NCBI GenBank assembly: GCA_002104985.1
Contig: MCGO01000059.1
Span: 186,001 to 250,000 of the forward strand
Direction: 5' to 3'
Source of the DNA: Rhizoclosmatium globosum
Taxonomy: Eukaryota > Chytridiomycota > Chytridiomycetes > Chytridiales > Chytriomycetaceae
DNA: 64,000 nucleotides
A program made the position numbers and the translations under genes. Position 1 is the first letter of the stretch. Each line of letters opens with the position of its first letter. Shown one piece after another: positions 119-63,500 of the stretch. The notes beneath the pieces are model-generated. The model saw only the letters and a list, made by a program, of their open reading frames with translations, was not told the origin of the DNA and did not search any database.

Positions 119-3100
119 ACTTGATGAAATACGGTACTGCAATCACAGGCGACAAAGTAAAACACCGTCTCCAAGAAATCCTGCACAAACTCGACACAGA
201 ACAGAAAGTCAAAACTGGTACCGAGAACCTCCTACACGCCATGATGAACCTCAACTCCGCCGCGTCCGTCGACCAACGCGTTGCCGTCGAGTTGCGTGAT
301 AAAATGGCAGAAAGTAATGCAAAGATTGGGGTGTTGGAGAAGGCGAAGCATCGGTACAGTGCCTTGTATGTTGCGCCTGTTGGAGAGGAGGAAGAGGATA
401 CGTTGATTGGTGAGTTTTGTTTTTTTGGTTTTTTGAGTGGTGTCTGTGTGATTAATTGGGTTTGATTTGTAGATATCAGACGGAAGTGTTCTGGTCGGTT
501 AAAGTTGAAACTTATCGGGGCTTCGAATCTCGTTGGACGGACGGCGGCGCAGAACGAAATTATTGCGACTGTGTCTGTGGATGGGAACTTGAAGTATACT
601 TCTCGTCGGTCTTCTACACGGTGGGATGAGACTCTTGATACGCAAGTAGATCGGGCGCAGGAGGTTGAGATTTGTGTGTATAGTCATCCAGGCGGGATGC
701 TTCTGGGTCTTGTTTGGTTCAAGCTGGGTGATTTGGAGGATGACTTGCGGGCACGGTACCCAAATGGCGTTCCCTCAAATGTGAATGACGTAGAAGACAC
801 TTGGTTAGATTTGGAACACGCTGGACAGATTTTGATTCGTGTTAGTTTCGGTGAGTCTGTCATTTTAATCGTGCACCTTCCCCCCTCAAAATTCTAAACC
901 ACAAACATACAGTTGGAATGGTCAAAACAAAAACCGCCCGCGACCAAGTCTTCCGTCGAGAAGCCGTCCAAAAGGCCTTCCCCCGAAACGGCCACAAATT
1001 CTACGCAATCCAATCCCTCCTCTACCAATGTGCCGTCTGTAACGAATTCTCCGGCTCCGGCACGCAATGGTACCAATGCCAAGGATGTCTATACACCTGC
1101 CACGCGAAATGTTACCCCAACGTAATCACGAAATGTATCACTCCCCAAGAAATCCGAAACGCGAAACCGGATCAGGACCTGAACACGGGTCAGCTCTTGA
1201 GTTACCGAATCCCGCACAGATTCCAACCGAAGACCATTTTGTTGTCGTCGTGGTGCGCTCACTGTGGAAGTATGATGGGTCCTGGAGCGAGGATTGAAAA
1301 GTGTGCAGAGTGTGGGAAATGCGCACATACAAGTTGTAAACCGATGGTTCCGAATTTCTGTCAGTTGAAGCCTGAGATGGCTATTCAACTTGTTGCTGCG
1401 TTTGAAGATGCGGAGAGGAAGAAGCATGCTAAGGAAATGGAGGAAGCGGAGAAGGCTGAGAAGGTTCGACGAGAGCATGATGCTGCTGTTGCGTCTGCTT
1501 TGGCGACGACTGTCAACGCTGCGGACTTGTTTAGAGGTTTGTCTTTGCCTTTTTACGGACGTTGTAGTATGCTTACGATATGGTTTAGACAAAGAACCTG
1601 AGGGCGAGACCTATCTTCGTGACAAGTTGCTGGAAAACGCAAAGCAATTGGAGTTGTTACATTTGCAGCAACAAAGAGAACAACAAGATGCTCAACAACA
1701 GCGTGCCGCTGAAGAAGAAAGAAGACGAAGACAAGCTGAAGATGATGAACGTAGGAAGCAGTTTGAGTTGCAGCAGAGACGGTTGTTGGAGGAGAGGAGA
1801 CGACAGGCCGAGCTCGAGGAGCAGCGACGACAACAACAGCAGCAAGTTGGATTTGCTTCCAGAAATGTCAAGCTGGAAGACTTTGACTTCTTGGCTGTGT
1901 TGGGTAGAGGTGCTTTCGGAAAGGTTGGACATCCAATTTGTCTTCACTAGATCTAATACTCTTGTGATAGGTTATGTTGATTGAAGAAAAGTCCACCAAA
2001 CAGCTCTACGCCATGAAAGCGCTTAAGAAAGAATTCATTATCCAAAGCGACGATGTGGCGAGTGCTATGTTGGAAAAGCGAATCTTCCAAAAGGCAACTC
2101 AATCACAACACCCTTTCCTTGTCAACCTGCACTCCTGCTTCCAATCCGACACTCGCTTGTACTTTGTTATGGAATACATATCTGGAGGTGACTTGATGTG
2201 TCACATTCAAGAAAAGAAACGTTTCAGTCAAGTCAGAGCCAAGTTTTACGCATGTGAAGTCTTGTTGGCGCTTGACTTCTTCCACAAAAACAACATTATT
2301 TACCGGTTTGTGGTTTATCTCTTCGATGGGTGTTGTGCTGATTTCCTTGTTTCAGTGACTTGAAGCTTGATAACATCGTCATGTGTCCAGATGGTCACAT
2401 TAAGGTTATTGATTACGGTATCTGTAAGGAAAATATGCCATATGGACAGCTTACAAGAGTGAGTTGTCTCAATTAATTAACTTGTCCTATCTAAACACTG
2501 CTTTAGACCTACTGTGGTACACCTGACTACATGGCTCCTGAAATCTTGAACCAGAGCAAATACAGTCGTGCTGTTGATTGGTGGAGTTTCGGTGTCCTTA
2601 TCTATGTTATGCTTGTTGGAAGAGTTAAGTGTTTGAAGATTCCAAGTTTCATCACTAACAATATTCTGAAACAGTACCCCTTCCATGGAGATGATGAAAG
2701 TGATATCCTTGAGGCGATTGTGTCCGATGCGATTGAATACCCTAGCAACATGCCGAAAGAGACCCTTGGTCTGATTCAAGGAGTGAGTCAACTCATTCCG
2801 TAAGCTGGACGTTTATACTGACTTGATTTCTGTGTATAGCTACTGAAGAAGGATCCAAGAAGTCGTCTTGGAGGAGGTAAATTGGACGCTGAAGAAGTCA
2901 AACGTCATCCATACTTTGCTGGAGTTGACTGGGACTTGTTTATGGAGAAGAAAGTTGCTCCTCCATGGAAACCTGTGATTGTGAGTACATATGTTTGTTG
3001 TTAATTGGTCTGACATCGTCGTTCTTAAACAAGAAATCCGAGAGGGATGTATCCAACTTTGACGCTGAGTTCACTAAAGAGAAACCGATCTTGACACCTG

Positions 3101-5249: not shown

Positions 5250-6030
5250 ATGAAATTTACTATCGCCTCTGTTCTTATCAGCTCCATTGGTGTGCTAAAC
5301 TCCTTCACACTTGCCGCCAATCAACTTCCAAATGGGATGCTGGACCTGCCAAGCTGTTCCACCAACTGTATTAGCCAACAACTTGGACCTTATAATGCTA
5401 CTTCGTGGGCCAACTCTCTTTGCACAAAGACATTTGTCGAAAAGAAGTATTCAGATTGTATCAAAACCAATTGCCGACCGGGAAGCCAATCCTGCTGTAG
5501 CCTTTCTCAAGAAGCGGAAATCCTATTGTGACGCTTTGACAAATGGTAAACCAGCGAAAACAGGTGTGAAACCTTCAAAAACCCACACTGCCAAGGCTGG
5601 CAAGACTGTTGCTCATCCAAAAAAGACAAACACGGCCGCCAAAGTTAAGCCATCTAAAACTGGTTCCAAGGGGAAACCAACGAAAACTGCAACGAAGAAG
5701 ACTAATTCCACAGCCAAACCACCAACAAAGAAGCAGTACCAGAATCTCATCGCCAAACTCCCGATCTGTTCCTTTGGCTGTATCAGCAAGCAATTGGGTT
5801 CTTTTGACTATGCCACGGTGTCCAACTCAGTGTGCAAGGCTGGATTTGATGAAATGGCTTCAAGTTGTGTTAAGGTAAACTGTAAGAACCAAAACGATGT
5901 TAAAAGTGCATCCAACTTCCTGATGGCACGAAAGGGATATTGTTTCTTTGCGAGTGTTATGGGTAAGGATGGGAAGCAAGGCGGTTCAAACGCGACAGCC
6001 GGCATTACGCATATTGGGGTTCGAGCCTGA
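5250..6030 (+). pseudogene. Secreted protein with two Cys-rich domains, broken by a frameshift
   Basis: The first reading frame (from the ATG at 5250) starts with a signal peptide of about 22 residues ending at SFTLAANQ. A Cys-rich domain follows with spacing P-x-C-x3-C-x17-C-x11-C-x4-C. Near 5480 the frame must change: the second frame carries the end of domain one (conserved YC), a Lys/Thr/Pro-rich linker, and a second copy of the same domain (about 5740-5960) to the TGA at 6028-6030. Comparing the two domain copies shows that roughly one or two bases are lost around the CCGGG at 5479-5483. The Cys pattern recalls CFEM domains but lacks their C-x-C step, so I do not assign CFEM. Either a sequencing error or a real break; no intron with GT-AG ends fits. 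Confidence 0.6.
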
Positions 6031-6457
6031 CATTCGACTCGACCCTTGACTGAAGGCTAGACTGGAGACTAGACTGGAAGGCGACTTGACAGCGAGTGAA
6101 AGGTCGGTTGATATCGAGCCGAATTCCAGTCATCATCGAACGGACATCGAGCATTTGTTCGGTAGGCATCCGGTAGAAAGATGTTCAATAACTAGTAGCG
6201 ACTGCTTTATCATTTGATCACGGGGCATCGGGATTGCATGGCTACAAACATTAAATCGGCAGCAATGTTGGGCATTAGTGCTTTGTACACTTTGAGACGC
6301 TGTTTCAAATACATTGTAGATCAAATTGGCGTGGTTGTGAGCCTTTTGTTATCTGATATTCTAGAACGTATTCAAGCAATCCATAAAGAACAGTTTTTTA
6401 CCAATATTGAGATACCAGCACTTCAAAAGCTGTTAAGTCTTGTTAATACAGTGTGCA
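6031..6457. other. Intergenic stretch up to the retrotransposon
   Basis: I see no supported gene in these 427 bases. Just after the secreted-protein stop lies a short degenerate repeat with two copies of CTAGACTGGA and neighbouring GACTCGA/GACTTGA words. An open frame from about 6238 runs into the left LTR without a stop but matches nothing and has no clear splice to the sequence beyond the element. It could be an upstream exon of the acidic ORF at 13.5-14.2 kb. Confidence 0.5.
6453..6457. repeat. Target-site duplication, left copy
   Basis: GTGCA directly before the left LTR equals GTGCA directly after the right LTR (13436-13440). Five bases is the usual length for copia-type integrases. Confidence 0.93.
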
Positions 6458-6756
6458 TGTTACGACGGAGAAGTCTTCTCCGAGTGATCTGTCGACAGGT
6501 TAGTCCGCACCCACTCCCTCACCATTCCACTACAGAACCGACTAACTTACCCAAGCAGGAGGTACGTAGTTGGAAGTGTGATAAGCGACATCAAGGTGAG
6601 CGTGTCGGGGTTGCGTGGAGATTCCGGACCGGGACTGAACGGAACTACGCTTCCGACCACTCCCGTCCGTCCGTGGATTGCACACGTGATCCCGGTTCTT
6701 CGCTTTTTCACAACAAACACTTCCAGTGCCTGCCACACAAGTCGCCCGTCCTAACA
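6458..6756 (+). repeat. Left LTR (299 bp)
   Basis: Begins TGTTACGACGG and ends CCGTCCTAACA, with TGTTA/TAACA as terminal inverted repeat. I found no difference from the copy at 13137-13435. It should hold the promoter; the Gag-Pol ATG follows its end by only 14 bases. Confidence 0.97.
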
Positions 6757-6770
6757 CAACTACGCCGTTA

Positions 6771-9700
6771 ATGACTGGGTCAAGCAAGTCTACTGTAAAC
6801 ACTACCGACGTCCACCGCCCCAAGCCTGTGGATGCTTTCGCTCCACACATGGTGTCCACGTCGCTTGATGAGAACGAGGCCTACATCAGGCAACTCTACC
6901 CGTCTCTCGTCAATCCCGACCTCCAATCCACGCTTGTGCTCGCTTCCTACGAAATCTTCGCTCCCACAACCGCTCCCAAACCTATTATGGTGAAAAAGAC
7001 GGTCACCTCCGAGAATGGTGGGCAGCCTTACGAAGTAACCGTGGAGAGCGACAAGCCGTCGGATCTGGCTGTTTTCCAGACGAATCAACTCAATCACAAC
7101 GCATTAGTTGATGCCGCTCTGAAACACCAAAAGGAAGTCGATGACATCAACAACAAGCGAAAGGAACAACATCGCAAGTTTATTGATGGTCAAGCCGCTG
7201 CCCTCCGTGACTACTCCCAGCAGTTCTCTTCCATCAAGTGGAAAGAGATTCAGGAGGACCCAACGTTCAAGGCCAACCCAACTCTTTTGAATGCATTCGC
7301 TGCTGCGCGATCTGTTTTCCAACAAGACGACCGGGTTGGGGTGAGTGACTATTTTACGTCTTCCCCTTTTGCCTTATCCATTTCAAATTCGACTTTGTAA
7401 TGATGACTAATCGACTTTTCATCATATAGATGAACTTCACCACGTTCTTGAACAACCTCATGCAGTCTGGACTGTCGAAGGAGCATCGGAACAGTTTGGA
7501 GAAGTGGGAAGCTTTCGTCGAAAAGCTCAAGAAGTCTTCCCAAGGTCTGCAGCAAATCAAGGCTGTTTTCCAGCATTTCCAGTTCAATGACACTGATGCG
7601 GAAAAGGCTGCCGATATCTTCTCTCTTGTCCTCACTCTGGCCCTTGTCCACAAGAACATGCCAGATCCAAGTTCGGTCCTTGGAAGCCGCTTCATTGGAA
7701 TCCGACTTGATATCGAGAAAGACGGTTACAAGTTGTTTCCAAATATGGAAGCTCTTATCACCAAGTTGACAAGCACTTTGACCAATGCTCGCAACCTTTC
7801 TGACCCATCTGACAAGTCTGACAAGAATATCAGAGCAAATGCTGTAAGTCATCATTATCTCCAACTATTGGTTTTGATAAATAACTAACATCAAACCATA
7901 GGGGAGAACCGAATCTTCACCAACGGTGTCAAAGTTCAAGGAGCTTGAGACTTGGCTTTCGAACAACGGATACAAAGCCAATCTCAACAATACGTGTCGC
8001 CTCCATCAATCAACCAGAGGTCCAACACATCTCCTTCGCCATTGTCGTTTTGCTGCCAGTCTGATTGAAAAAGGAGAGGCTGTTGATCTGACCCAACGCT
8101 TAGAGAAATCTAAGACCACCCAGTCTTCCCCTACCTCAAACTCTGGTCCTTCTTCAAGTTCCCAAGACCGTGACAGAAGAAAAACTGACAAGCGCCACCG
8201 TTCTGCTCGCGACGCTTCTGACTCTGACCGAAACAACCGTCGCAAGAAGCGTGCGAATGCTGCTGACACTGAGTATGAAACAGACTACTACTCCGACAGT
8301 GCCAGTGATGACGAGAAAGACGTCAAGATTGACAAGAAGGCTCTCAGATCGATTCTGAAGGTGAGTGAAAATGCCGATTTGGTCGATTCCTCCCCCTCCG
8401 ATTCTGATTTTGATATGCCTGCTCTTGCTGAATCCTCCAGTGACTCTGAGTCCATGGATGAATATGATTCCGACGATGGTTCTTACACTTCATTGCCCAG
8501 ACTTCAAAATCTAACAAGGACGTTGAGAAGCAAGTCCGTAAGCTCGCGGGCAAGTAGAATCCAGAGAGGCTCAACGCTTCTTCAAGTCGATGAAGTTGAC
8601 AAGTGGCACGATTTTAATGAGTTGTCAAAGCGGATTTTTGTTACACGTGGATTGAATGTTTTCAATAAACGTATCCGTTCTTTGATTGATTCTGGTGCTT
8701 CCTTGATTATGACTCCCTGTTTAGAACACTTTGTTCCTGGGACCTACCAGCCAGTTGAAGATGAATTCGTATATATGGCCAACGAAAACAAGATCCCAAT
8801 AGTCGGTACTGGTACCATCCGAATGTTCAGTAACCCTGAGAGACTGATTGAAGGCGCTCTTCATGTCCCTCAGCTTACAGACATGCTTGTGTCAATTTCA
8901 CACTTGTTACGTGACTCAAAAGATACCATTGAGTTCACTCAGAACAAGGTACGCTTGAAGCTCAATCAAACGCGTCAAGTCTTGGAAATTGGAGCACGAG
9001 TCGGCGATCTTTACTACATTGACCTTGGTTATGACGAATCCAAATTTGCTGCACCTGCAAAGTCTATTCCTGCTCTAGATCGCAAAACTTGGTTAGAATG
9101 GCACCAAGTCCTTGCCCACTGCAACGACCGTACTATGCGTCAAACATTGGACTCTGCAGGTATCACCTACAACTTTGAGCGAGACAAGAAAATCTGTCCT
9201 GCTTGTCCTGCCGTAGCACACAGGAAACGAACCACCCGTAAGCTTGATGGCCCATCAGACAGGCCAATTCACATGTTAAGCCACATATACGAAGACCTTT
9301 ATCCAATTGGTTTTCGCACTATTCGTGGTTACAGGTATATAGCATTCATCCAATGCCGATACACCAAATATATGTGGATTCTACCGCTCAAGTCAAAAGC
9401 AGAGTTTACCATCCGATTCACTCGTTTTCTGAACACTTTAGAGCTCAAGTATGGGTATCAGATTCTTGTAATTGGAGGCGACAGAGGTGAACTTGATACC
9501 AAGTGGATGGAAACTTGGTGCCTCTCCCATTCTGATGTTGAAGTGGAGCTCCGACTTGCACCAGCTTACACTCAAGAATTTAGTTTGGTCGAACGCCCTC
9601 TTGGAATCTACCGCGACAGAGCTGAATTGGAATTGCTGACATCCTTGTTCCCAAAGGATTTCTACTGCTTTGCAATTCAACTTGCAGTCTTTGTCATTAA

Positions 9701-12700
9701 TTCACTCGTAACCGCCGCTCCTAAAAATGGAGTACGCGCGAAGTCACCGTATGAACGTATCACCAAGGTACAACCATACTACAAGTGAGTCTTTCAAACA
9801 TTCTTTATACTCAATTCTGGAGAGTAACAACTATTTACAGTTACTTCATTTCCATGGGTACGTTGGGATATACGCCAGTTGAAAAGAAACTACGGACCAA
9901 ACGCGTTGGTAGAATGATCAAAGCAGAGCCCGTTGCCTTTCTTGCATACAAGTCGCGTACTATCATGATTGTTTGGAACTATCGCCTTCAAAAGCCAGTT
10001 GAAGTATTTCACGTTCGCTGGTGCCCCACCATCTTTCTTGGAAAGACCTTTGATCCAACAGTGGTAAATCCGTTTGTCAAGGCCCATGCTGATGCCATGC
10101 AGACATCAATGCCAGTGACTCCGGTTGAAGATGAAGTTTTCGACTACTTCATTGACATACCAGATGATGGTTTCAAGGTACCTGAAGCACTTGTTGACTC
10201 CGAATCTGACACTCCAGAGTCTGGTTGGGACACTGATGCTACTACACTTTCCAAGTCTGAGATGACATATAAAGGTGACGTTGAGGCAGTTTCTTTGGAA
10301 GATGAAGGTGAATAGCCGTACACTATCATAAATCCTTCAAATTCTTATTTAACAATCATACAAATCTTTAGATGATACTATCATGACTGACGATGAGGCA
10401 AGTCTTGAAAAGCTATTCTCTAAAGTCCAGCCTGTTGGCGAATCTATGGCCCATGGTTAGTATTCCTCAATACGCCAAGCAAAATGTAACATTCTTTATG
10501 TTTTCCTATAGATTCTGCTGACAGTACCAGCCCATTATTTTCGGGACCTTTAATCGATGGCCCTCGCCTTGCCAGAGAACGTGAGGATATTTCTCGTCTC
10601 CTCCAAGAGCCTGGTCGAAGCCTGCGAAAGCGACCACGTAGCCGCGAGTCTTCGAGTGAACCTCCACAAAAGCCACGTCGTCTCCGAGCAAAGGTTTCCA
10701 AGTCGTCTATTTCCCTTGGTACCAGTGATTTAGATGAATTCATATCTTATATGCAACACCTTTTCAAGGAAGGTCAAGTCCTTATGTCAGACTCAGATTC
10801 AGCATCTGACTCTGAAGCCTCAAGCCCTGGCACCAAACCTGCTAAGTCCAACGATGAAGCAGAGCCAGCAACCCTATCTGATCCAGACTTTGAAGCTGCA
10901 TTGAGCCGCCGCGCACTCGAAGCTATAACTACTGTGGTTCGTGCAAGTACTACATACATTAGGCTTCAACACCGAGTTGAACGTGCTGCCAAATCAACTG
11001 GCAAGAAATTCAGTAAACTCCGCCGCCGCGCCGAACATGCTCGTGTCGAAATGGATAGCTTTATGAGTTCCCAGATGGAAGAGTTGGAGAAAGAAAGATC
11101 TCGCATCAACGCTGCCCGCCGACCAGAACTTCACTTTGATTGGTCCAAGGCTGCTCCCTCTGATGTACCAACTGAACGTATTCATGTTTCCAATGCTCCA
11201 CCTGTTCCTAAGTCAGTTCGTGAAGCTATGGAAGGACGCTTTGCTGCTTACTTTCAACGTGCAATGCTTTGTGAAATTGAGAGTCTAATGAACCGCGAAG
11301 TTTACACCACTTCTCTTTTGCCTGAAGGTCGCAAACCCATCAAATCAAAGTGGGTTTACGCATACAAGACTGATCCTGAAGGATTCATCACTCGCTTCAA
11401 AGCTCGTCTTGTTGCAGTCGGCTGTGGTCAAACCCCTTATGATGACTTTGACGAAACTCATTCGCCAACAGTCAAGATCAAGGCAATCCGTGTTCTCATC
11501 GCGTTAAGCGCCGCATTTAACCTCAACATTTCGCAACTTGATATCAAGACTGCATTTTTGTATGGTGACTTGGACCATCCAAACTACATGCATCTTCCCC
11601 CAGGGTTCACTGAAAAAGACTCTGAAGGTAGACCTCTCTTTGCCGAGCTCAAGAAAGCACTCTATGGTCTTCGCCAAGCTGGACGCCAATGGTATAAGAG
11701 ACTACGCGATTTCTTTGTGAAAATTGGTTTCCAACAGTTGAAAACTGATTCCTGTGTCTTCATGAAGATTGATCCAACTACTGGTCAACTTGTCATCATT
11801 CTATTCTATGTTGATGATATCCTCATTGCTTGTAAGGACCAAGCTGTGATTGACCAAATCAAGGAGCTTATTAAGTCTGAGTTTGAGATTTCTGACCTTG
11901 GCCAAGCCAAATGGATTCTCAAGATCCAAGTTGAACGCACCAAAGCGGGAATATGGATAGGACAACCTCAATATGCTCATGCTCTGCTGAAAGAATACGA
12001 TATTTGGGATCTGGACTCCAACAATTGGGCCGATACTCCAATGGCCACCACTTGGAATCATGACCCAAGTAGCCCTCCCGTTTCTGCAGAAGGACAACGC
12101 AAATACTGTTCAATTATTGCCAAGTTGATTTATTTGAGTTGTATGACCAGACCAGACCTCATATGCGCTGTGAACACTCTGGCTCAGTTTCAACGTTCCT
12201 CCACCACTCAGCATGATTATGATGCGCTGATTCGAGTTCTACGCTATCTTCGTAGAACTTATGATTGGGGAATTCTTTTCAAGGCAAGTGCTTCTGGTGA
12301 CCTCACTGTCTACTCTTCTGAAGAGTCTCGAGTAAGGACTGACCGACCACTTGATATGGAACTGCCAGAAGGATTGGCTCCACATGCTGCTGCTGATTCA
12401 AGTTTTGCACAAGAGACTGATCGTAAGTCTCGCTCTGCGTATGTGATGATGGCTTTCGGAGGTCCAGTTGCCTGGTACTCCAAGAAGCAGTCAACTACTG
12501 CTTTGTCTTCTACTGAATCCGAGCTCTATGCCCTCGTTGAAGCAGTTAAAGAAGCTCTTTGGATGCGTCTATTCTTGCAAGAACTTGGTTTCAAGTTGCC
12601 TGGTTCTACAGTAATTGATCAAGACAATCAGTCTACAATTGCTATTGCATCCAACCCCATCAACCATGCCCGTGTTAAACACATGGAGGTCAAGGCTCAT

Positions 12701-12907
12701 TTTGTACGTGAACATATTGAAAACAGCAATGTTTCTCTGGTTTACTGCCCCACTGAGTTGATGGTTGCTGATGTACTTACTAAGGCTCTGCCTGCTCCCC
12801 AACACTACAGGTTATGTGGTATGATGGGAATGTGTAAGTTATCTGATGTTGACCCTGATTATAAGTTTAAAGCACTTAGAGTCAGATACACAAGGTTTAG
12901 TGATTAA
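6771..12907 (+). CDS. Copia Gag-Pol polyprotein, six exons
   Basis: Exons 6771-7340, 7430-7843, 7902-9784, 9841-10307, 10372-10455, 10512-12907 total 5,814 nt, a multiple of three (1,937 aa). Introns are 89, 58, 56, 64 and 56 nt, all GT-AG, most with a CTAAT/CTAAC or TAAC branch word. Four of the five contain or create a stop if retained. Gag has a C-x2-H-x7-H-x4-C possible zinc motif. Protease has DSGAS (about 8689). A GAG-pre-integrase HHCC finger is near 9107-9230. The integrase core keeps D (YED), D (GGDRGE) and E (LVER); its C-terminal domain is continuous only after removing 9785-9840. Reverse transcriptase has FYVDDI near 11805, and RNase H has STESEL and DNQST. No inactivating stop remains, so the element may be active. 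Confidence 0.9.
8361..8500 (+). promoter_or_regulatory. Optional intron that could end Gag
   Basis: A strong donor (AAG|GTGAGT) at 8361 lies inside the open Gag-Pol frame. Splicing to the acceptor CATTGCCCAG (ends 8500) joins a frame of 18 codons, lysine-rich, ending at TAG 8555-8557. A nearby alternative acceptor is AACAAG at 8518. The intron is 140 nt, so splicing shifts the frame. Unspliced RNA continues through protease and the rest of Pol. Splicing would thus make Gag alone, much as Drosophila copia makes Gag from a spliced RNA. Inference only; the retained sequence is also coding-like (acidic, Ser-rich). Confidence 0.4.
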
Positions 12908-13136
12908 ATAAACATTTATGAAGTTCAATTCTTCAAGCTCGCACTCTATTCTGGTGAATTAAATGTTTAGCCTTATGCTTGTAAAAAGCTTCTGTGTCTC
13001 CAGTATAGTCTCGTCACAGGGGGGACGCGTGTCACGCGCGTGCCGGCACCTCTGGGCTTATTATACGCACTCAATCTAGTCCGACACTCTTATCACTTCA
13101 CACGTGACTGCAACCTACCCTGTCGTCACAGGGGGG
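12908..13136 (+). other. 3' untranslated part of the element with duplicated polypurine tract
   Basis: Between the Pol stop and the right LTR. The 14-mer TCGTCACAGGGGGG occurs exactly twice, at 13011-13024 and 13123-13136. The second copy abuts the right LTR and is the expected plus-strand primer (polypurine tract). The first lies 112 bp upstream. The spacer is GC-rich with CACGCGCGTG palindromic words. Confidence 0.75.
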
Positions 13137-13435
13137 TGTTACGACGGAGAAGTCTTCTCCGAGTGATCTGTCGACAGGTTAGTCCGCACCCACTCCCTCA
13201 CCATTCCACTACAGAACCGACTAACTTACCCAAGCAGGAGGTACGTAGTTGGAAGTGTGATAAGCGACATCAAGGTGAGCGTGTCGGGGTTGCGTGGAGA
13301 TTCCGGACCGGGACTGAACGGAACTACGCTTCCGACCACTCCCGTCCGTCCGTGGATTGCACACGTGATCCCGGTTCTTCGCTTTTTCACAACAAACACT
13401 TCCAGTGCCTGCCACACAAGTCGCCCGTCCTAACA
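13137..13435 (+). repeat. Right LTR (299 bp)
   Basis: Same sequence as 6458-6756 by direct comparison. It ends TAACA and is followed by the target duplicate GTGCA. It should supply the polyadenylation signal of the element. Confidence 0.97.
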
Positions 13436-13440
13436 GTGCA
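13436..13440. repeat. Target-site duplication, right copy
   Basis: GTGCA, the partner of 6453-6457. Confidence 0.93.
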
Positions 13441-23221: not shown

Positions 23222-24856
23222 ATGCCATTCCAAGATACTACAACTGTCTATGGTGAGATACCCCTCTTTCTTGAGATACCCCTCTTTCTCTTACGAAGCT
23301 GAAGAAAAAGAAAATAGATCAACTGAAGCCGTTTATTGACCAAGAAGCCTATGCAAAAGACTGTGAATCCTCCATTGTCATTCTGAAATATTTGACAGGA
23401 TACCACAGCCCAATCCTTCAAATCTTACATATCTGGAAACCACTTCTCCACGCAACTACATCCATCATGACACCTTTTCGTGGTGCGCCAGCATGTGACT
23501 TTGGGTTTACTCCCATCGATGCTGCCCTTCGAACAAAAGTAATCACTCTTACGTCCCTCGTCGCAGAATGCCCATCCTGTTCAGCTTTAAATTGCCGGAT
23601 AGGGAAACTTGGAAAGGCGCGTATCCACTGAAACCGATCGTGTTGACTCCAAGTATGATTTCGGAACGTGAACAAGTTGCGTTGAATGCGGTTGTGGGGG
23701 CGACTGTGATTCCTGCTGCGAGATCTGAACGAACGCGAAAAAAGGTTGTTGAACGGTTTGGGGAGAAGGGATTACAGCTTTTAGGGACATTTATTGCATC
23801 GATGGGTTTGTGTTGACGGAATATGTTTAACAACTAATTGTAATATCAGCTTTAACAAATACCATAACGTCTTTAGTGTGTGTGGATATTGAGGCAGATG
23901 TTCAAAAAGATATGGAAGTGGCATTGGCAGGAACTGGTTGGAAGATGGGACGTCATAAGACAGCTTCAACCACTATGAACGCAAACGACAATCAACAACC
24001 GACTTCATTAACTATATTCAAGCATATTCTGAAGGTTCTGAAAGAAGCGAAAATTACAATGTCATCTTTTCCGTCTAAACCAGCAGATCTGACTAATTGG
24101 ATTCAATCAAAGTTTGGATTTCAACCACGATACCTATCGAAAATGATTTCATTTGAGTCTAAAAAAGCAATGTGTTTCAACCTGCATCTGTCCCTATTCA
24201 CGTCTTCAACAACCCATTCTCCCGATCTTCAGCAACATCCATATTCAATGCCTTTCAAAGATAAACTGATGGTTTCGTTTGTCTACTCTATCGCGATTCC
24301 AAACACGTACCTTGCTTCTCATTTTGCGTTTCTTGCTCATCAACATGGAATATCAGCTGAGTCGCTTCTCGAAGCCGAAAAGCAATCCAAACAACCTTTA
24401 TCAGAAATATCGGAGTCGACAGATTTTATGACGCTTGTGTTAATGGTAACGTCAAGGATAGCCGTTCGAAACTCAGAGTTCTACGATGTTGCGCCATTAC
24501 TATTTCCAGCGACAGGGAATCCAAAGAGTCTACTCGAAATGTTATCACTTCTAGGATCACTTTCTATGCTTCATAGATATACTGCAATGTGGGATGACGA
24601 AGCAGGACTTGAGGCGGACCTTGTTCCTGTGATAAAAGGAGAGTTTGGGAAAGCTGTGGGATTGAGTGAAAGCGAGTATTCTGCCAATTGCTCGAATGGC
24701 AGTACTGTTGGTTTGAGCAACATTGGGGGAATTTCGTACGCAGGATCTAGCGCTCAACGAATGACAGTGCCTGTAGCCACTGCAGTCAGAGATATGAAGC
24801 AGACCCTTAGTCCCGATTCTGCACTGCCATGGGGTGGAGGAGTAACTTATGCGTGA
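23222..24856 (+). pseudogene. AhpD-like protein, copy 1, one-base frame break
   Basis: Exons 23222-23252, 23318-23805 and 23850-24856. The fold is suggested by two blocks typical of AhpD/carboxymuconolactone decarboxylase-like proteins: LRTKVITLTSL followed by ECPSCSA (a CxxC, possible redox pair), and SEREQVALNAV followed by a FGEKGLQLLG helix. The C-terminal half is family-specific and ends in a conserved GGGVTYA tail. At 23613-23615 copy 1 has GGAAAGG where copy 2 has GGAAAAGG, shifting the frame in exon 2; downstream sequence is intact in the other frame. It is either a recent pseudogene or a sequencing error. The substrate is unknown. Confidence 0.6.
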
Positions 24857-25171
24857 AAGATAACGCGTGAATAAATGGCTTTAAGTAATTGTTATGCAAC
24901 GTGAACGAATGATTGAATGCCACGCAAAAGAATTGAACAATCTTGAGAAGGTGTTATTAAAATTGTTGTTTTGCGTTCCTTGCTGTAACTCAGGATACTC
25001 AGTGTTGCCACAAATTCAAGCTAGACTGGCATTCTTTTTTGTTATTTCTGCGACATTGTTTTCTTTCCGTTTTTGTCTCAGATGAGACAAAATACATCCG
25101 ATTGCACAAATTCTTTGTTGTTAATCGTAAATCTTACGAAACGGAATAACGGAACAATCAGCATCGAAACA

Positions 25172-26812
25172 ATGTCAATATCACAAGAAGCTGTCACTAT
25201 CCACCGTGAGACTTCACAACCCATTTTGTACCATTATTATTAAGATAAATTAATAAGATCAATTGGCCCCATTTGTCAACCAAGAAGCGTACGCAAAAGA
25301 CTGCGATTCCCTCATCGTCATTATGAGGTATTTGACAGGATACCGCAGTCCAGCCCTTCAGATTGCACACATCTGGAAACCAGCTCTTCACTCAGCTACG
25401 CTCATTATGACGCCTTTTCGTGGTGCGCCAGCATGTGACTTTGGGTTTTCCCCCATCGATGCTGCTCTTCGAACAAAAGTAATCACGCTTACGTCTCTCG
25501 TTGCTGAATGCCCAGCCTGTTCAGCTTTAAATTGCCGGATAGGTAAACTTGGAAAAGGCGCGTATCCACTGAAACCGATCGTGTTGACTCCAAGTATGAT
25601 TTCGGAACGTGAACAAGTTGCGCTGAATGCGGTTGTGGGGGCGACTGTGATTCCTGCTGCGAGATCTGAACGAACGCGAAAGAAGGTTGTTGAACGGTTT
25701 GGGGAGAAGGGGTTACAGCTTTTGGGAACGTTCATTGCGTTGATGGGTATGTAGCCAACGAACACAGTATTTTGTCTTGGAATACTAACTTGGAATAACA
25801 GCGTTAACAAATACAATGACATCTTTGGCGTGTTTGGATATTGATGCTGATATACAAAAAGATATGGAAGTTGTTTTGAAGGGAACTGGCTGGAATATGG
25901 GACGTCATAAGACAGTGTCAACCACCATGAACGTTAGCGATTTTCGCCAACCGTCTACATTTACAGTATTGAGGCATGTTCTAAAGGGTATCAAAAAAGC
26001 AAAAATTACAATGTCGTCGCTACCATCAAAACCGGCAGAGTTAAACATGTGGATTCAATCCAAGTTTGGATTTCAACCACGATACCTATCAAAATGATTT
26101 CGTTTGAGTCTAAAAGAGCAATGTGTTTCAACCTGCATCTGTCCCTATTCACATCTTCAACAACCCATTCTTCCGATCTTCAGCAATATCCATATTCAAT
26201 GCCTTTCAAAGACAAGCTCACGGTTGCGTTTGTCTACTGTACTGCGATTCCAAACACGTACCTTGCTTCACATTTTGCGTTCCTTGCTCATCAAAATGAA
26301 TTATCGGCCGAGTCTCTTCTCGACGCCGAAAAGAAGTCGAAGCTGTCTTTATCAGAATATCGGAGTCCACAGATCTTATGACGCTAATGTTAATGGTAAC
26401 ATCAAGGATAGCTGTTCGCAACTCTGAGTTTTACGACGTTGCGCCGTTGCTATTTCCAGCCACGGGGAATAATCCAAAGAGTCTTCTAGAAATACTGTCG
26501 CTTATTGGATCGCTTTCTATGCTTCATAGATATACTGCAATGTGGGATGACGAAGCTGGACTTGAGGCGGACCTTGTTCCTGTCATAAAGGGAGAGTTTG
26601 GGAAAGCCTTGGGATTGAGTGAAAGCGAGTATTCTGCCAATTGTTCGACTGGTAGTACTGCTGGTTTGAGTAACATTGGAGGAACTTCGTTCGGAGGATC
26701 CAGTACCCAAAGAAAGACAGTTGCGGTTGCATCTGCTGTTAGTAGGGAAAAACAGCAGAGCCTCAGTCCCGATGCTGCACTGCCATGGGGCGGAGGAGTA
26801 ACTTATGCTTAA
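25172..26812 (+). pseudogene. AhpD-like protein, copy 2, two one-base frame breaks
   Basis: Tandem paralog of the preceding gene with the same exon plan: 25172-25205, 25258-25746, 25802-26812, with a TACTAAC branch site in intron 2. CxxC (ECPACSA) and SEREQVALNAV are intact. Two breaks occur relative to copy 1: TATCAAAATG at 26088-26097 (copy 1 TATCGAAAATG) and CAGAATAT at 26353-26360 (copy 1 CAGAAATAT). Each copy is intact where the other is broken, so the ancestral frame is clear. Coding similarity is kept through both breaks, which argues for very recent loss or base-calling error. Confidence 0.6.
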
Positions 26813-57351: not shown

Positions 57352-57594
57352 GAACTGTTCGGATTGGAGTTGGTTTTTAGCGAGGACTGGTATTGGGTTT
57401 GTTGAATGACAAATACAACTTTTAGGTATTTGAAATGCATCACTAATAAGATATCTCCTCCACAATCTGATTTGATTTTCTCGGCTGGGGGATTTGATTT
57501 GATACGAGGTCACGTGACTTGCCATATAAAAACGACAACAAAGTTTGAAACTGTTCACAACAACTCAAGAAAACCACAAATCAACCAAAACAAA

Positions 57595-58793
57595 ATGTCT
57601 GCATCTGCCGTCTTTGCTATCGGAGTCACTGAGGAGAACAAAAACCTCCACTTGATTGAGATCCCCCGTCGTGCTGTTGGTCCAAACGACGTCCACATTG
57701 ACATTGAGTACTGTGGAATGTGTCACTCGGACCTTCACCACTGTCGTCAAGAATGGGGAGAGACCAAGAAGCCTTCTGTTCCAGGCCATGAAATCGTTGG
57801 ACGTGTGACTGCTGTTGGAAGCGCTGTGACAAAGTTCAAGGTTGGCGATGCTGCTGGAGTTGGATGTTTTGTGGATTCATGCAGAACTTGTGCGGAGTGT
57901 AAGGATGATTTGATTCAGTACTGTGAAAAAGGAGTTATCGGTATGTTTTTTTGAAGCTTTTTGTAGTATTTGTGGACTGGTTGCTTACATTTGACGCTAG
58001 GAACTTACGGAAATAAGACTGCTGATGCTCCTGGACACACCCTGGGTGGTTACTCTCAGGCCATTGTTGTTGACCAGGACTACGTTTTGAGAATTCCAGA
58101 CAACTTGGATTTGGCTGCTGCCGCTCCACTTCTCTGTGCTGGTATCACCGTTTGGTCCCCAATGAAGCACTACGGTGTTAAGGCTGGCAGCAAGGTTGCC
58201 GTTCTTGGTCTTGGAGGCTTGGGTCACATGGGTGAGTTTGTGTTTGTCGGAAAACTTTGGCACACTTTTGCTTACGAGTATCTCACAAATCAGCTGTCAA
58301 GTTTGCTAAGGCCTTTGGAGCCCACGTTACTGTTCTTTCTCGCTCTCCATCCAAGTCAAAGGAAGCTTTGGACCTTGGTGCTGAGAATGTCCTGATCACT
58401 TCTGATGACGCTGCATTCAAGGCCGCTGCACGCTCATTTGACTTTATTGTGGACACCGTCTCTGCTGAACACGACTTGGCTGCATACCTCTCATTGCTGA
58501 AAACTGATGGTACCCACATTCTTGTTGGAGGATCTCCTGTGCCATTTGACCTTCCAGCATTTGCTCTCATTATGAAGAGAATCAAGGTTGGAGGATCATT
58601 GGTTGGAGGTATCAAGGAGACTCAGGAAATGCTTGATTTCTGTGGACAAACCGGGATTGTTAGTGAAATCGAGCTTGTGAAGGCTGGATACGCAGAGAAG
58701 GCCTGGGAGCGAATGCTCAAGAGTGATGTTAAGTTCCGATTTGTCTTGGATATCAAGGGATCATTGAACAAGGAGACTGTTGTTGATATCTAA
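57595..58793 (+). CDS. Zinc-dependent alcohol dehydrogenase, copy 1
   Basis: Exons 57595-57940, 58001-58231 and 58294-58793 give 358 aa. A medium-chain dehydrogenase of the cinnamyl-alcohol/ADH7-like group. Catalytic zinc ligands lie in CGMCHSD and GHEIVG; the structural zinc site is CRTCAEC...YC; the Rossmann loop is GLGGLGHM, interrupted by the second intron. The group reduces aldehydes with NADP(H); substrate preference cannot be read. The promoter lies in the roughly 240 bp after the NDK gene. It is nearly collinear with copy 2, 130 bp downstream. Confidence 0.93.
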
Positions 58794-58925
58794 AATGGTT
58801 ATTTTTGATTTGTCGTGAGCTTGAATACATTACATTTTGCATTTGTCATGATTTGAAATTCTTGATAGTGGGGAACAAAGACCTGGTTTGAAACTAATCA
58901 CACTGGCGAAAAAGAACCTTCAAAA

Positions 58926-60193
58926 ATGTCCACCACTGTCTACGCTATCGGAGTCACCGAAGAGAACAAGAACTTGCACTTGATCCAAATTCCACGTCGT
59001 GCCGTTGGACCAAACGATGTGCACATTGCGATTGAGTACTGTGGAATGTGTCACAGGTATGCATCACCTGTCAACTACCCCGCGTACACCAGTCATGTAA
59101 CCAGTACCTCTAAACTACCTTCTACCACAGTGACCTCCACCACTGCCGTCAAGAATGGGGCGAGACAAAGAAGCCATCTGTCCCAGGCCACGAAATCGTT
59201 GGAAAGGTGACAGCCGTTGGTTCCAGCGTGAACAAATTCAAGATTGGCGATGCGGTTGGTGTCGGTTGTTTCGTGGATTCTTGCAGAACTTGTCCCGAGT
59301 GCAAGGACCACTTGATTCAGTACTGCGCGAACGGTGTTGTTGGTGGGTTTTTTAGTGAACCCTGGTTGTTAGTTTTGTCACATGACTCAAATCTTTTATG
59401 AAATTAAAAAGGTACCTATGGAGCAAAGACTGCTGATGCTCCTGGTCACACTCTTGGTGGTTACTCGCAGTCTATTGTTGTTGACCAGAACTACGTCCTC
59501 AGTATCCCTTCCAACTTGAGCTTGGATGCCGCTGCTCCACTTCTCTGTGCTGGTATCACTGTTTGGTCTCCAATGAAGCACTACGGTGTTAAAGCTGGCA
59601 GCAAGGTTGCCGTTCTCGGTCTTGGGGGTTTGGGCCACATGGGTAAGGAGCCAATTCGAAATTATTTGACGCGTTCTAATGTCTGATTCTTAGCTGTCAA
59701 GTTTGCTAAGGCTTTTGGAGCTCATGTTACTGTCCTGTCTCGTTCTCCATCCAAGTCGAAGGAGGCTTTGGACCTTGGTGCTGAAAACGTCTTGATTACC
59801 TCTGACGCCACTGCGTTCAAGGCTGCCGCACGTTCCTTTGACTTCATTGTTGATACAGTTTCCGCTGAACACGACTTGGCTTCCTACTTGTCGTTGTTGA
59901 GAACCGATGGTACCCACATTCTTGTTGGTGGTTCCCCAGACCCATTCAAGCTCCCTGCTTTCGCTTTGATTCCAAAGAGAATCAAGGTTGGAGGATCATT
60001 GGTTGGAGGCATTAAGGAGACTCAGGAGATGCTTGACTTCTGTGGAAAGAACAATATTGTCAGTGAGATTGAGTTGGTTAAGGCTGGATACGCTGAAAAG
60101 GCTTGGGAGAGAATGCTCAAGAGTGATGTCAAGTTCCGTTTTGTGGTTGATATCAAGGGATCTTTGGGCAAAGATACCGTTGTTGATGTTTAA
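58926..60193 (+). CDS. Zinc-dependent alcohol dehydrogenase, copy 2
   Basis: Exons 58926-59056, 59131-59342, 59412-59642 and 59694-60193 give 357 aa. A tandem duplicate of the preceding gene with the same zinc-site and Rossmann motifs and nearly the same C-terminus (KSDVKFRFV). It has one extra intron, 59057-59130, which splits the CGMCHSD motif between His and Ser; copy 1 reads through uninterrupted. The other two introns are at identical positions. Conservative changes are spread along the chain, so both copies look functional. Confidence 0.93.
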
Positions 60194-60580: not shown

Positions 60581-63500
60581 ATGGGTTGTGGAGCCTCAAA
60601 GAACACAACGAAGACTACGACCACTACGACTCCTGTCAAGCCTGTGGGGGGTCCAACGAAAGGTAACGAAATCGCGAAAACTGCGGCTATAAACAGCAAA
60701 GCTGGTATGTAGCTTTGGACATCTTGAAGTTTGATTCGATGGAATTGGAGGGCGAGATGAAGGAGGGTATGGAGGAGAGGTGTGTAAATCAGTGAAGTTG
60801 GTCGCGTTTTCATGACGGAGTTTCGTGGGCTTTGGAATCTTTTTAAATTACGGCGAAGCTCTTTCTTTCTCGCGGAGCAGTCGGGACTGTTTGCTGATAA
60901 TCTATTCATACATAGATGCGACCAATATGAAATCAATCGCCCAACCGGCGGCTTCAGTGGCAGCAACTAAACCTGTTACGCCTATTCCAGCTGGAGCAGC
61001 TGTAGCTGCACCGGCGATTGTGTCCAGTGTTGCACCTGAAGGTTAGGATTTTATCTTGGCAAAACCTGGAAACTCACTTCCATAAACTCAAAAAAAGTTT
61101 CTAAACAAGCCTCAGCTATTGCTGTTGCACCGGCTGCTGCAATCTCCAAACAAGTGTCTGCTGTACCCATTCCTGAAATTTCAAAGCAGGCTTCTGCTAT
61201 CCCCGTTGTTACAGCAGATATTTCGAAACAAGTGTCCGCAGTGCCTATTGTAGCACCGCCTGACATCTCGAAACAAGTCTCAGCCGTTGGAGCCGATATT
61301 TCAAAACAGGTTTCTGCGGTCCCCATCATTGCGGCTGATATCTCTAAGCAAGCGTCTGCTGCTATTGTTGCTGCAAACGCAGCAGTGGGAGATTTGTCTA
61401 AACAAGCTTCCAATGCAGCTAATATTGCTGGTGATATTACGAAACAGGCATCTGCGGTTGCTGTAGCTGGAGCTGCTGATATTTCGAAGCAGGCTTCTGC
61501 GTTGATTAATGCACCGGGTGATCTTGCGAAACAGGCATCAGCTATTGCGGCTCCTGAAATTTCAAAGGCTGCGTCGGCGGTTTCTGTTGCAAAAGATGCG
61601 GCTGCTGCTGCCCAGGCTGATGTTGCTGGACACCTTGCGAGTGCTCACAGTGCAGCTGCAGACGCGTCTAGAGCTGTTTCTGCGGCAGCGAGTACTGCAG
61701 CCGGTCATGTTGCTGATGCCGCTGGTTCTACGGCTGCAGCTGTGGGAGAGAGTGTTGGAGTTGTTGCGGGGGCGGCGGTTGTTGCTGGGGCTGCTGTAGC
61801 ACATGATCACAGCGAACAATCACACGATGCTCCTTTACCTGCTAAATCTGAAGCTGCTGCTGTGCATAAGTCAAACCTCTCTATTGCCGCTCCTGTCATT
61901 GCTGCTTCAACTCCAGAAGGCGAAACTGTAGAACACAAAGATATGGCTTACCAAGGAACCGGAAGTCACGATGCGTTTGATGCTTCTGGACCCTCTGCAG
62001 ATGAAGATATCGAGCCACAGGAATGGACTATTCTCCCACCTGGAGAAATCCCCCCTGAAGTAGACCCATCAGAAATCAAAAAGGAATACTTGGTTGAGGA
62101 AATTGAAAAAAAGATTGCTGAAGAGGAAGCTCAGAAAGAGAAAGAGAGACACCAAGCTGAAGAGGAGCTGAATCGCCGACTTACCGCCGTTGATGTGGAG
62201 CAAGAATTAGACAGTATGTTGGATTCTATTATCATGAATAGTCGAAAGACAAAGAAGCAGCACTCATCCGAGGGAGCAGATAACGCTAATACTGAGGCTG
62301 GTGCCGCGAACACGGGTGCGGCGGGTGCATCTGCTGAACCTACTGGTGACGAACTCGCTGCCCAAATTGCCGCCGTTGCTTCTGGTACTGGATCAGCCAT
62401 TGGATCAAAAGCAAACTTGGCTGCGGCCGAAGGAACAACCAATCCGGATCATAAGACTGTTGAGGCTACCGCAGTACAAGCTGGAGCCATTCTTGACGGA
62501 AGCAAAAAAGCCTCTGTGGCTGAATTGGGACACGCCGATGGTAATTATAAGCCTTGAGTTGTCAAAAGGTCATTAATCGTGATACGTTCTGTAGACCTTG
62601 CTGCCGCTGCCGCTGCTCCTCTTCCACTCAGTACCAAAGGTTCAACTTCCAACATCCTGAACAGCAAACAAGGATCAGCCGGAAACCTCATCCACGGCGA
62701 CGCGCCACTGATTTCAGGAGCGAAAGGTTCTGCCGCCAATTTACTGCATGGTGAATCTCCATTGAGCCACGAAACTACTCTTGACGATGAAACTGCTGTA
62801 GCCGCCGCTGCTGCCGTTGGCGCTGTCGCTGCTGTTGCTGCGTCTGAGGTAGCCGCAAGTCAAAAGGGATCAAAGGCAAACTTGTTGGGTGATGCACAAG
62901 CTTCTGGTAGCAAGGCTGCATCGAAGGTTCCATCCAATGCAAACCTTGAAGAAGCTGCTGCAGCGTCTGGAAGCAAAGCTGCCTCCAAGGCTCCGTCCAG
63001 TGGTAACTTGCTTGGCGATGCTGCTGCTTCTGGAAGTAAGGCTGCGTCAAAGGTGCCCTCTAATGCTAATCTTGGTGATGCCGCTGAAACTGGAGCTGCT
63101 CCAGAAGCCGCCAAAGCTGCTTCAAGCGCCAACCTTGTCGAATCTACTGAGGCGAAAGCTGCATCAAAGGCACCTTCTAACGCTAACTTGCTTGGTGACG
63201 CTGCAGCCGCTGGTAGTAAAGCTGCATCTAAGGCTCCTTCTGCCGCCAATTTGGGAGAAGCTGCTGCTGTTGCTGGAGCTGTTGCCGCCGAATCTGAAGC
63301 TCATGCTGCCGCAAGCAAGGCTGCATCTAAGGCTCCATCAAATGCTAATTTATTAGGTGATGCCCCAGCTGCAGGTAGCAAAGCAGCTTCAAAAGCTCCT
63401 TCCAACGCCAACCTTGGAGAAGCTGCCGCCGAACCAGCTAAAGCCGCCTCCGCTGCAAACTTGGTTGCTGAATCCGCAGCCCCAGCAGCTGTTGCAAGTA

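Follow-up and report, generated by a model that had tools for sequence, protein, structure and literature searches.

The window analyzed here, a stretch of 64,000 nucleotides from Rhizoclosmatium globosum, contains a recently active Ty1/copia LTR retrotransposon. The initial annotation had placed the element at 6771..12907, which is too short, as the whole element spans 6458-13435. Its features, with five candidate introns (I1 to I5), are as follows.

6453-6457 and 13436-13440, + strand: two copies of the target-site duplication gtgca
6458-6756, + strand: 5′ LTR, 299 nt, TG...CA, identical to the 3′ LTR
6771-7340, + strand: exon 1, N-terminal part of gag, ATG at 6771
7341-7429, + strand: I1, 89 nt, phase 0, GTGAGT...CTAAT...TAG
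7430-7843, + strand: exon 2, gag
7844-7901, + strand: I2, 58 nt, phase 0, GTAAGT...CTAAC...TAG
7902-9784, + strand: exon 3, end of gag, protease (DSGA), Pol_BBD, gag-pre-integrase, integrase core
9785-9840, + strand: I3, 56 nt, phase 2
9841-10307, + strand: exon 4, C-terminal part of integrase (tblastn to families C and F, see below)
10308-10371, + strand: I4, 64 nt, phase 1, splits codon G/AT
10372-10455, + strand: exon 5, 84 nt
10456-10511, + strand: I5, 56 nt, phase 1
10512-12907, + strand: exon 6, linker, reverse transcriptase RVT_2, RNase H (by eye), stop
13130-13136, + strand: polypurine tract AGGGGGG (by eye)
13137-13435, + strand: 3′ LTR, identical to the 5′ LTR

As proposed at first reading, the two LTRs of this copy are identical, showing no mismatches across the 297 nt aligned (the terminal CA was read by eye), and the LTR lies 14 nt from the ATG. 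Both the ends of the element (TG..CA LTRs and a 5-bp target duplication) and its domains (Pol_BBD and an RVT_2-type reverse transcriptase [RT] located downstream of integrase) place it in Ty1/copia (Pseudoviridae). Pfam detected Pol_BBD in exon 3 (1.2e-11) followed by RVT_2 in exon 6 (1.7e-57), which is the Ty1/copia order. The gag-pre-integrase domain of exon 3 was below the cut-off (0.027). No rve match to exon 3 appeared with the E-value limit set to 1, and rve was below the cut-off in families C and F. The integrase D-D-E and HHCC motifs, the protease DSGA motif, and RNase H were all identified by eye. Rfam and tRNA scans of the window returned no matches. In a viral-contig scan with exon 6 as the query, none of the 6 pattern matches proved to be a relative; the set scanned may omit records near the source genome.

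The initial annotation held that gag-pol becomes one continuous frame upon removal of five GT-AG segments, and we found all five at the proposed coordinates: the six exons (570 + 414 + 1883 + 467 + 84 + 2396) add up to 5814 nt, and the phases 0, 0, 2, 1, and 1 close. The open frames of the element (6771-7400, 7430-7888, 7902-9788, 9755-10315, and 10490-12907) do not form one common frame, and each intron, if retained, brings in an in-frame stop (at 7398, 7886, 9786, 10313, and 10458). Exon 5, with a length divisible by three, could be skipped with the frame kept. GT-AG ends, a branch-like word, and a restored frame, as expected of spliceosomal introns, were all found. Frame-compatible pairs were then ranked with a simple splice score combining donor, branch, and acceptor. 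I1, I2, and I4 came first among 26, 15, and 20 pairs, respectively. I3 tied for first among 28 with a rival pair that uses the same donor and an acceptor ending at 9912; the score recognized no CTAAY-type branch word in it, and only a TAAC was noticed by eye. Its boundaries are nevertheless settled by an insertion found on contigs C394 and C34, which lacks exactly 9785-9840. I5 ranked third of 20, making its acceptor the least certain boundary, and I4 (GTGAAT) and I5 (GTTAGT) have weaker donors than I1 to I3. For seven host-gene junctions tried in the window, the best candidate was 47-62 nt long at five, with GTGAGT, GTGAGA, or GTAAGT as the donor; the best candidate at ABC i1 was 164 nt with nothing convincing, and at ADH i2 a 60-nt pair came third behind pairs of 159 and 177 nt.

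We next searched the 56.9-Mb assembly (420 contigs) with DNA queries spanning each intron and found the element at 13 places or more, this count being a lower bound. The C394/C34 and C372/C109 pairs have common flanks, so each represents one insertion seen twice, leaving 11 insertions; these pairs are either duplicated segments or haplotypes assembled separately. I4 and I5 are present at all 13 places (I4 with a 7-nt deletion at C377), I2 is whole at 12 and falls within a larger deletion at C377, and I1 is whole at 11, a deletion having taken its donor end at C372 and C109. I3 is also whole at 11 places, being absent from C394 and C34. LTR pairs could be compared for 10 copies: seven had no mismatches, C377 had three, and C394 and C34 had four each. 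The seven copies with identical LTRs are flanked by seven different 5-bp target-site duplications and keep all five introns. At least seven recent insertions therefore carried the five introns, in agreement with the earlier proposal that the element moved recently with its introns in place, and unspliced RNA must be the usual template. One further locus, C124:180857-192194, contains partial LTRs and repeated 3′ RT pieces, suggesting a tandem array derived from one copy.

Retrotransposition is the textbook route of intron loss, and the C394/C34 insertion probably offers a natural example. It is without exactly 9785-9840 while I1, I2, I4, and I5 are kept, and its sequence is in frame over the junction, reading QPYYNYFIS as predicted. 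The other 10 insertions, including the most diverged, have I3, so its absence from C394/C34 is a loss. The simplest cause would be the reverse transcription of an RNA spliced of I3 alone. A random 56-nt deletion could in principle give the same result, given that this is a single event in an insertion that has otherwise decayed (one nonsense codon and a nested insert in exon 6). However, both ends of the deletion hit the predicted GT and AG to the base, its end letters differ so that it shows no microhomology and is not shiftable by one base, and no further deletion of more than 2 nt was found in the 5.6 kb compared before the nested insert. We thus regard a chance deletion as extremely improbable. 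This precise removal, observed at the DNA level, concerns I3 alone (1 of 11 insertions); I1, I2, I4, and I5 have no such independent case.

To evaluate coding constraint, substitutions were counted over nine rows (the window, L031-L036, L040, and L043), leaving out L044, a duplicate of L043, and the decayed L037, L038, and L039. Of the unique changes in the exons, 103 are silent and 40 replacing (including one nonsense change), over 1312 silent and 4493 replacement sites, for a pN/pS of 0.11 over the six exons. Silent changes outnumber replacing ones in every exon, with silent/replacing counts of 11/4 in exon 1, 7/0 in exon 2, 36/9 in exon 3 (including the nonsense change), 8/4 in exon 4, 2/0 in exon 5 (27 codons), and 39/23 in exon 6. 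Exon 6 of L032 lacks one base, and L043 contains the nonsense codon; the remaining seven rows are open in all exons. The five segments might also be taken for decay indels or translational recoding sites in a dead copy, a reading whose sole argument is the in-frame stops that appear when the window copy is considered alone. This reading is very improbable and was rejected, as the same breaks are common to the seven young copies, silent changes dominate in all exons, and the exact loss of I3 already refutes it for that segment. The search for related copies thus favored the initial view that these segments are not insertions in a single decayed copy. The introns vary at 8 of 323 sites, below the silent sites (103 of 1312; Fisher p 2.8e-4), which hints at constraint on splicing. 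This is a hint rather than proof, since the LTRs and 3′ UTR also change slowly and related copies are not independent.

A protein search with exon 3 gave three matches, one of which is a Rhizoclosmatium hyalinum protein (P0242, 526 aa). By eye, its start resembles exon 1, and it joins DRVG to MNF (I1) and RANA to GRT (I2) at exactly the proposed points. The P0242 gene model, itself a prediction, thus appears to agree with I1 and I2. It is patchy, with further stretches of exons 2, 3, 4, and 6 missing; it differs at I4, and it joins the I5 donor to another acceptor.

Other copia elements of the genome were then compared with this one (family A). An RT search gave 94 matches, and four further families, B, C, F, and G, were examined. 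RT identity of family A to B, F, and G is 52-55% (45-48% diverged). Family C (contigs C52 and C301, with a frameshifted copy on C223) is the closest intron-free family, at 50% RT identity and with the same domain order. Unlike family A, it is a single uninterrupted frame (1958 codons); tblastn aligned it collinearly with exons 2, 3, 4, and 6 and gave no match for exon 1. In contrast, families B (C224), F (C4), and G (C129, a decayed copy) are broken by GT-AG segments that are predicted introns. The same gag glycine codon is interrupted in A (DRVG/MNFTTF), B (EGS-G/LQFHHW), F (ETG-G/HAFHNF), and G (DKS-G/LQFMNW), by the phase-0 intron I1 in A and by predicted phase-1 introns in the other three, and family C reads DKSGTQASEFF unbroken. 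The gag-site pair took first place among 13 pairs in B and among 24 in G. In family F, the gag intron is an in-frame, stop-free stretch of 48 nt (L053 718-765), identified by eye and unscored, on either side of which tblastn of the two B frames halts and resumes; given a length divisible by three and no stops, the frame would be open there in spliced and unspliced RNA alike.

The linker between integrase and RT contains at least two predicted phase-1 introns in each of A, B, F, and G. The first splits G/AT in A, B, and F and G/AA in G. Linker pairs ranked first of 18 and first of 15 in F, and first of 9 and second of 11 in G. In B, the first tied for first of 36, and the second was outside the top two of 8, so that its acceptor stays a candidate. 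A third predicted linker intron of F tied for first of 41. I4 thus has a phase-1 predicted counterpart at the matching place in B, F, and G, and its putative homology rests on order, phase, and split codon within a poorly conserved linker. The homology of I5 is uncertain, since its distance from RT in A exceeds that in B and F by about 100 residues (by eye). No counterpart of I2 was seen by eye in B and F, and the breaks of B in late gag and at gag/protease are poor intron candidates (top scores 4.4 and 3.2). At the place of I3, an SH3-like stretch runs unbroken in B, C, and F, each below the Pfam cut-off, from which we infer that I3 probably splits the integrase C-terminal domain in A. An RT phylogeny covering 27 proteins recovered a clade of A, B, F, G, and three metagenome proteins (0.937); its sister comprises family C and one metagenome protein (0.977 for the whole). 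Among more distant copia families of this genome, several are single frames of 1500-1749 codons, and others have frames of 408-888 codons, their upstream parts lying outside the comparison. In the simplest history, introns would have arisen at the root of the A/B/F/G clade, followed by private gains or losses and long persistence; alternatively, family C may have lost its introns by reverse transcription. Family G also has a 57-nt in-frame GT...AG stretch within the RT core (GLHQ/ASREW, L063 ~5456-5512) with the look of a private intron.

Passage through RNA would be no puzzle if the introns were mobile, introner-like sequences that inserted recently and were regained repeatedly. A 57-nt piece of I1 does match contig C405 outside the element (84%), and some introns are private to a family (I2 and I3 in A, the predicted extra linker intron in F). 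However, stand-alone searches of the genome with I1 and I4 returned almost exclusively the element itself, with 13 of 13 places for I4 and 13 of 14 for I1 being element copies. Moreover, the gag site is common to four families 45-48% diverged in RT, and the seven young copies hold the same intron sequences. An introner-like origin was thus rejected as the main cause on these genome searches with I1 and I4 and is, overall, very unlikely. The C405 match itself (C405:11600-13600, L064, ~987-1032, reverse strand) covers 46-57 nt at 84-87% identity to the middle of I1, in a region outside element copies and with no clear long frame.

Judging from these sequence comparisons, we consider it very probable that the window holds a recently active Ty1/copia element with five spliceosomal introns, whose unspliced RNA would be copied and whose spliced RNA would be translated. 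Given the stop in each retained intron, unspliced RNA would yield only a 209-residue Gag fragment. Any longer Gag depends on spliced RNA, and the RNA that ends up as DNA is intron-bearing; two RNAs must therefore be in use, an arrangement that may amount to a retrovirus-like division between translated and packaged RNA. In such a scheme, the LTR promoter would make full-length RNA, part of which would be spliced and translated into Gag and Gag-Pol, and another part would be packaged unspliced and reverse transcribed by the proteins made from spliced RNA. Partly spliced RNA would occasionally be packaged, producing copies such as C394/C34. The unspliced RNA could be kept apart by slow splicing, by a start site of its own as in BARE, or by a packaging signal. 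If I3 were retained, translation would stop directly behind the integrase core, and splicing may in this way determine the Gag:RT ratio as well.

Whether any dedicated sorting takes part is evenly balanced in our view. In one version of the same explanation, the introns would be real with no special sorting: splicing would be incomplete, enough spliced RNA would be translated, and unspliced RNA would be packaged by default. The weaker donors of I4 and I5 speak for this version, as do Cryptococcus transposon transcripts, which are reportedly poorly spliced (PMC5851062), and the one copy that kept four introns and lost one fits piecemeal splicing. However, the signals of I1 and I2 are strong, host-like, and at the top of all alternatives, with I3 tied, and the low intron variation hints at constraint, even if the LTRs and 3′ UTR are slow too. 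Conversely, a more ambitious version of the two-RNA scheme would extend it to a chytrid copia clade in which the spliceosome acts as a switch between genome and messenger. Only spliced RNA would give Gag-Pol and only unspliced RNA would normally be copied, stepwise retention (with a stop at the I3 donor, before RT) would set Gag:Pol, and the introns, acquired at the root of the clade, would have persisted. We put this forward tentatively, as a possible but rather doubtful extension.

Intron-bearing retroelements are already known, as is splicing for Gag in copia and BARE. Penelope-like retroelements, which are not copia-type LTR elements, reportedly keep spliceosomal introns through transposition, a finding attributed to Arkhipova in 2003. 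The initial annotation knew of no such retrovirus-like division of labor in Ty1/copia elements at this scale, and this stands only in part. BARE has separate RNA pools for translation and replication with a spliced Gag RNA, and its authors wrote in 2013 that, apart from copia, no other such case had been shown in the Copia superfamily (PMC3735527). BARE1 of barley thus resembles the chytrid element in its superfamily, its spliced RNA, and its separate pools. It differs in that it has one open frame, in which removal of a 104-nt alternative intron stops Pol and gives Gag only (PMC3735527), whereas the unspliced RNA of the chytrid element cannot yield full Gag or Pol. Copia of Drosophila also uses splicing for Gag, but through a single 2950-nt splice that deletes nearly all of pol, as described there (PMC3735527), whereas the chytrid element must lose several short introns before Gag-Pol is readable. 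The polarity is therefore reversed with respect to BARE and copia, as the chytrid element needs splicing for any full Gag and Pol. Cryptococcus likewise has fungal transposon transcripts with introns; these are poorly spliced and feed RNAi (SCANR, siRNA), and the accessible part of that account, told for RNAi defence, describes no shared copia intron sites or natural loss of one intron (PMC5851062). A literature search by titles and abstract starts found no copia element with several gag-pol introns, which is weak evidence because subscription papers were mostly outside it. Nor did this search turn up splicing as a requirement for Gag-Pol with intron sites common to several copia families.

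With several introns kept, apparently in four families, this copia lineage must separate the RNA that is copied from the RNA that is spliced. It thus offers a simple natural setting in which to ask how unspliced genomes are preserved by retroelements and retroviruses, with intact and one-intron-less copies forming a natural record of how often this separation fails.

The window has other contents besides the element. A ribosomal protein L7 piece is 97% identical to its counterpart in Siphonaria sp. JEL0065, a member of the Chytridiales, and 92% identical to that in Chytriomyces hyalinus, which suggests a chytrid host close to this order. Two adjoining similar frames at 23831-26812 have the look of a tandem duplication, as do, by eye, two adjoining zinc-type alcohol dehydrogenase-like frames at 57406-60193. 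Finally, a frame at 61040-62557 is rich in KQASA or KQVSA repeats.
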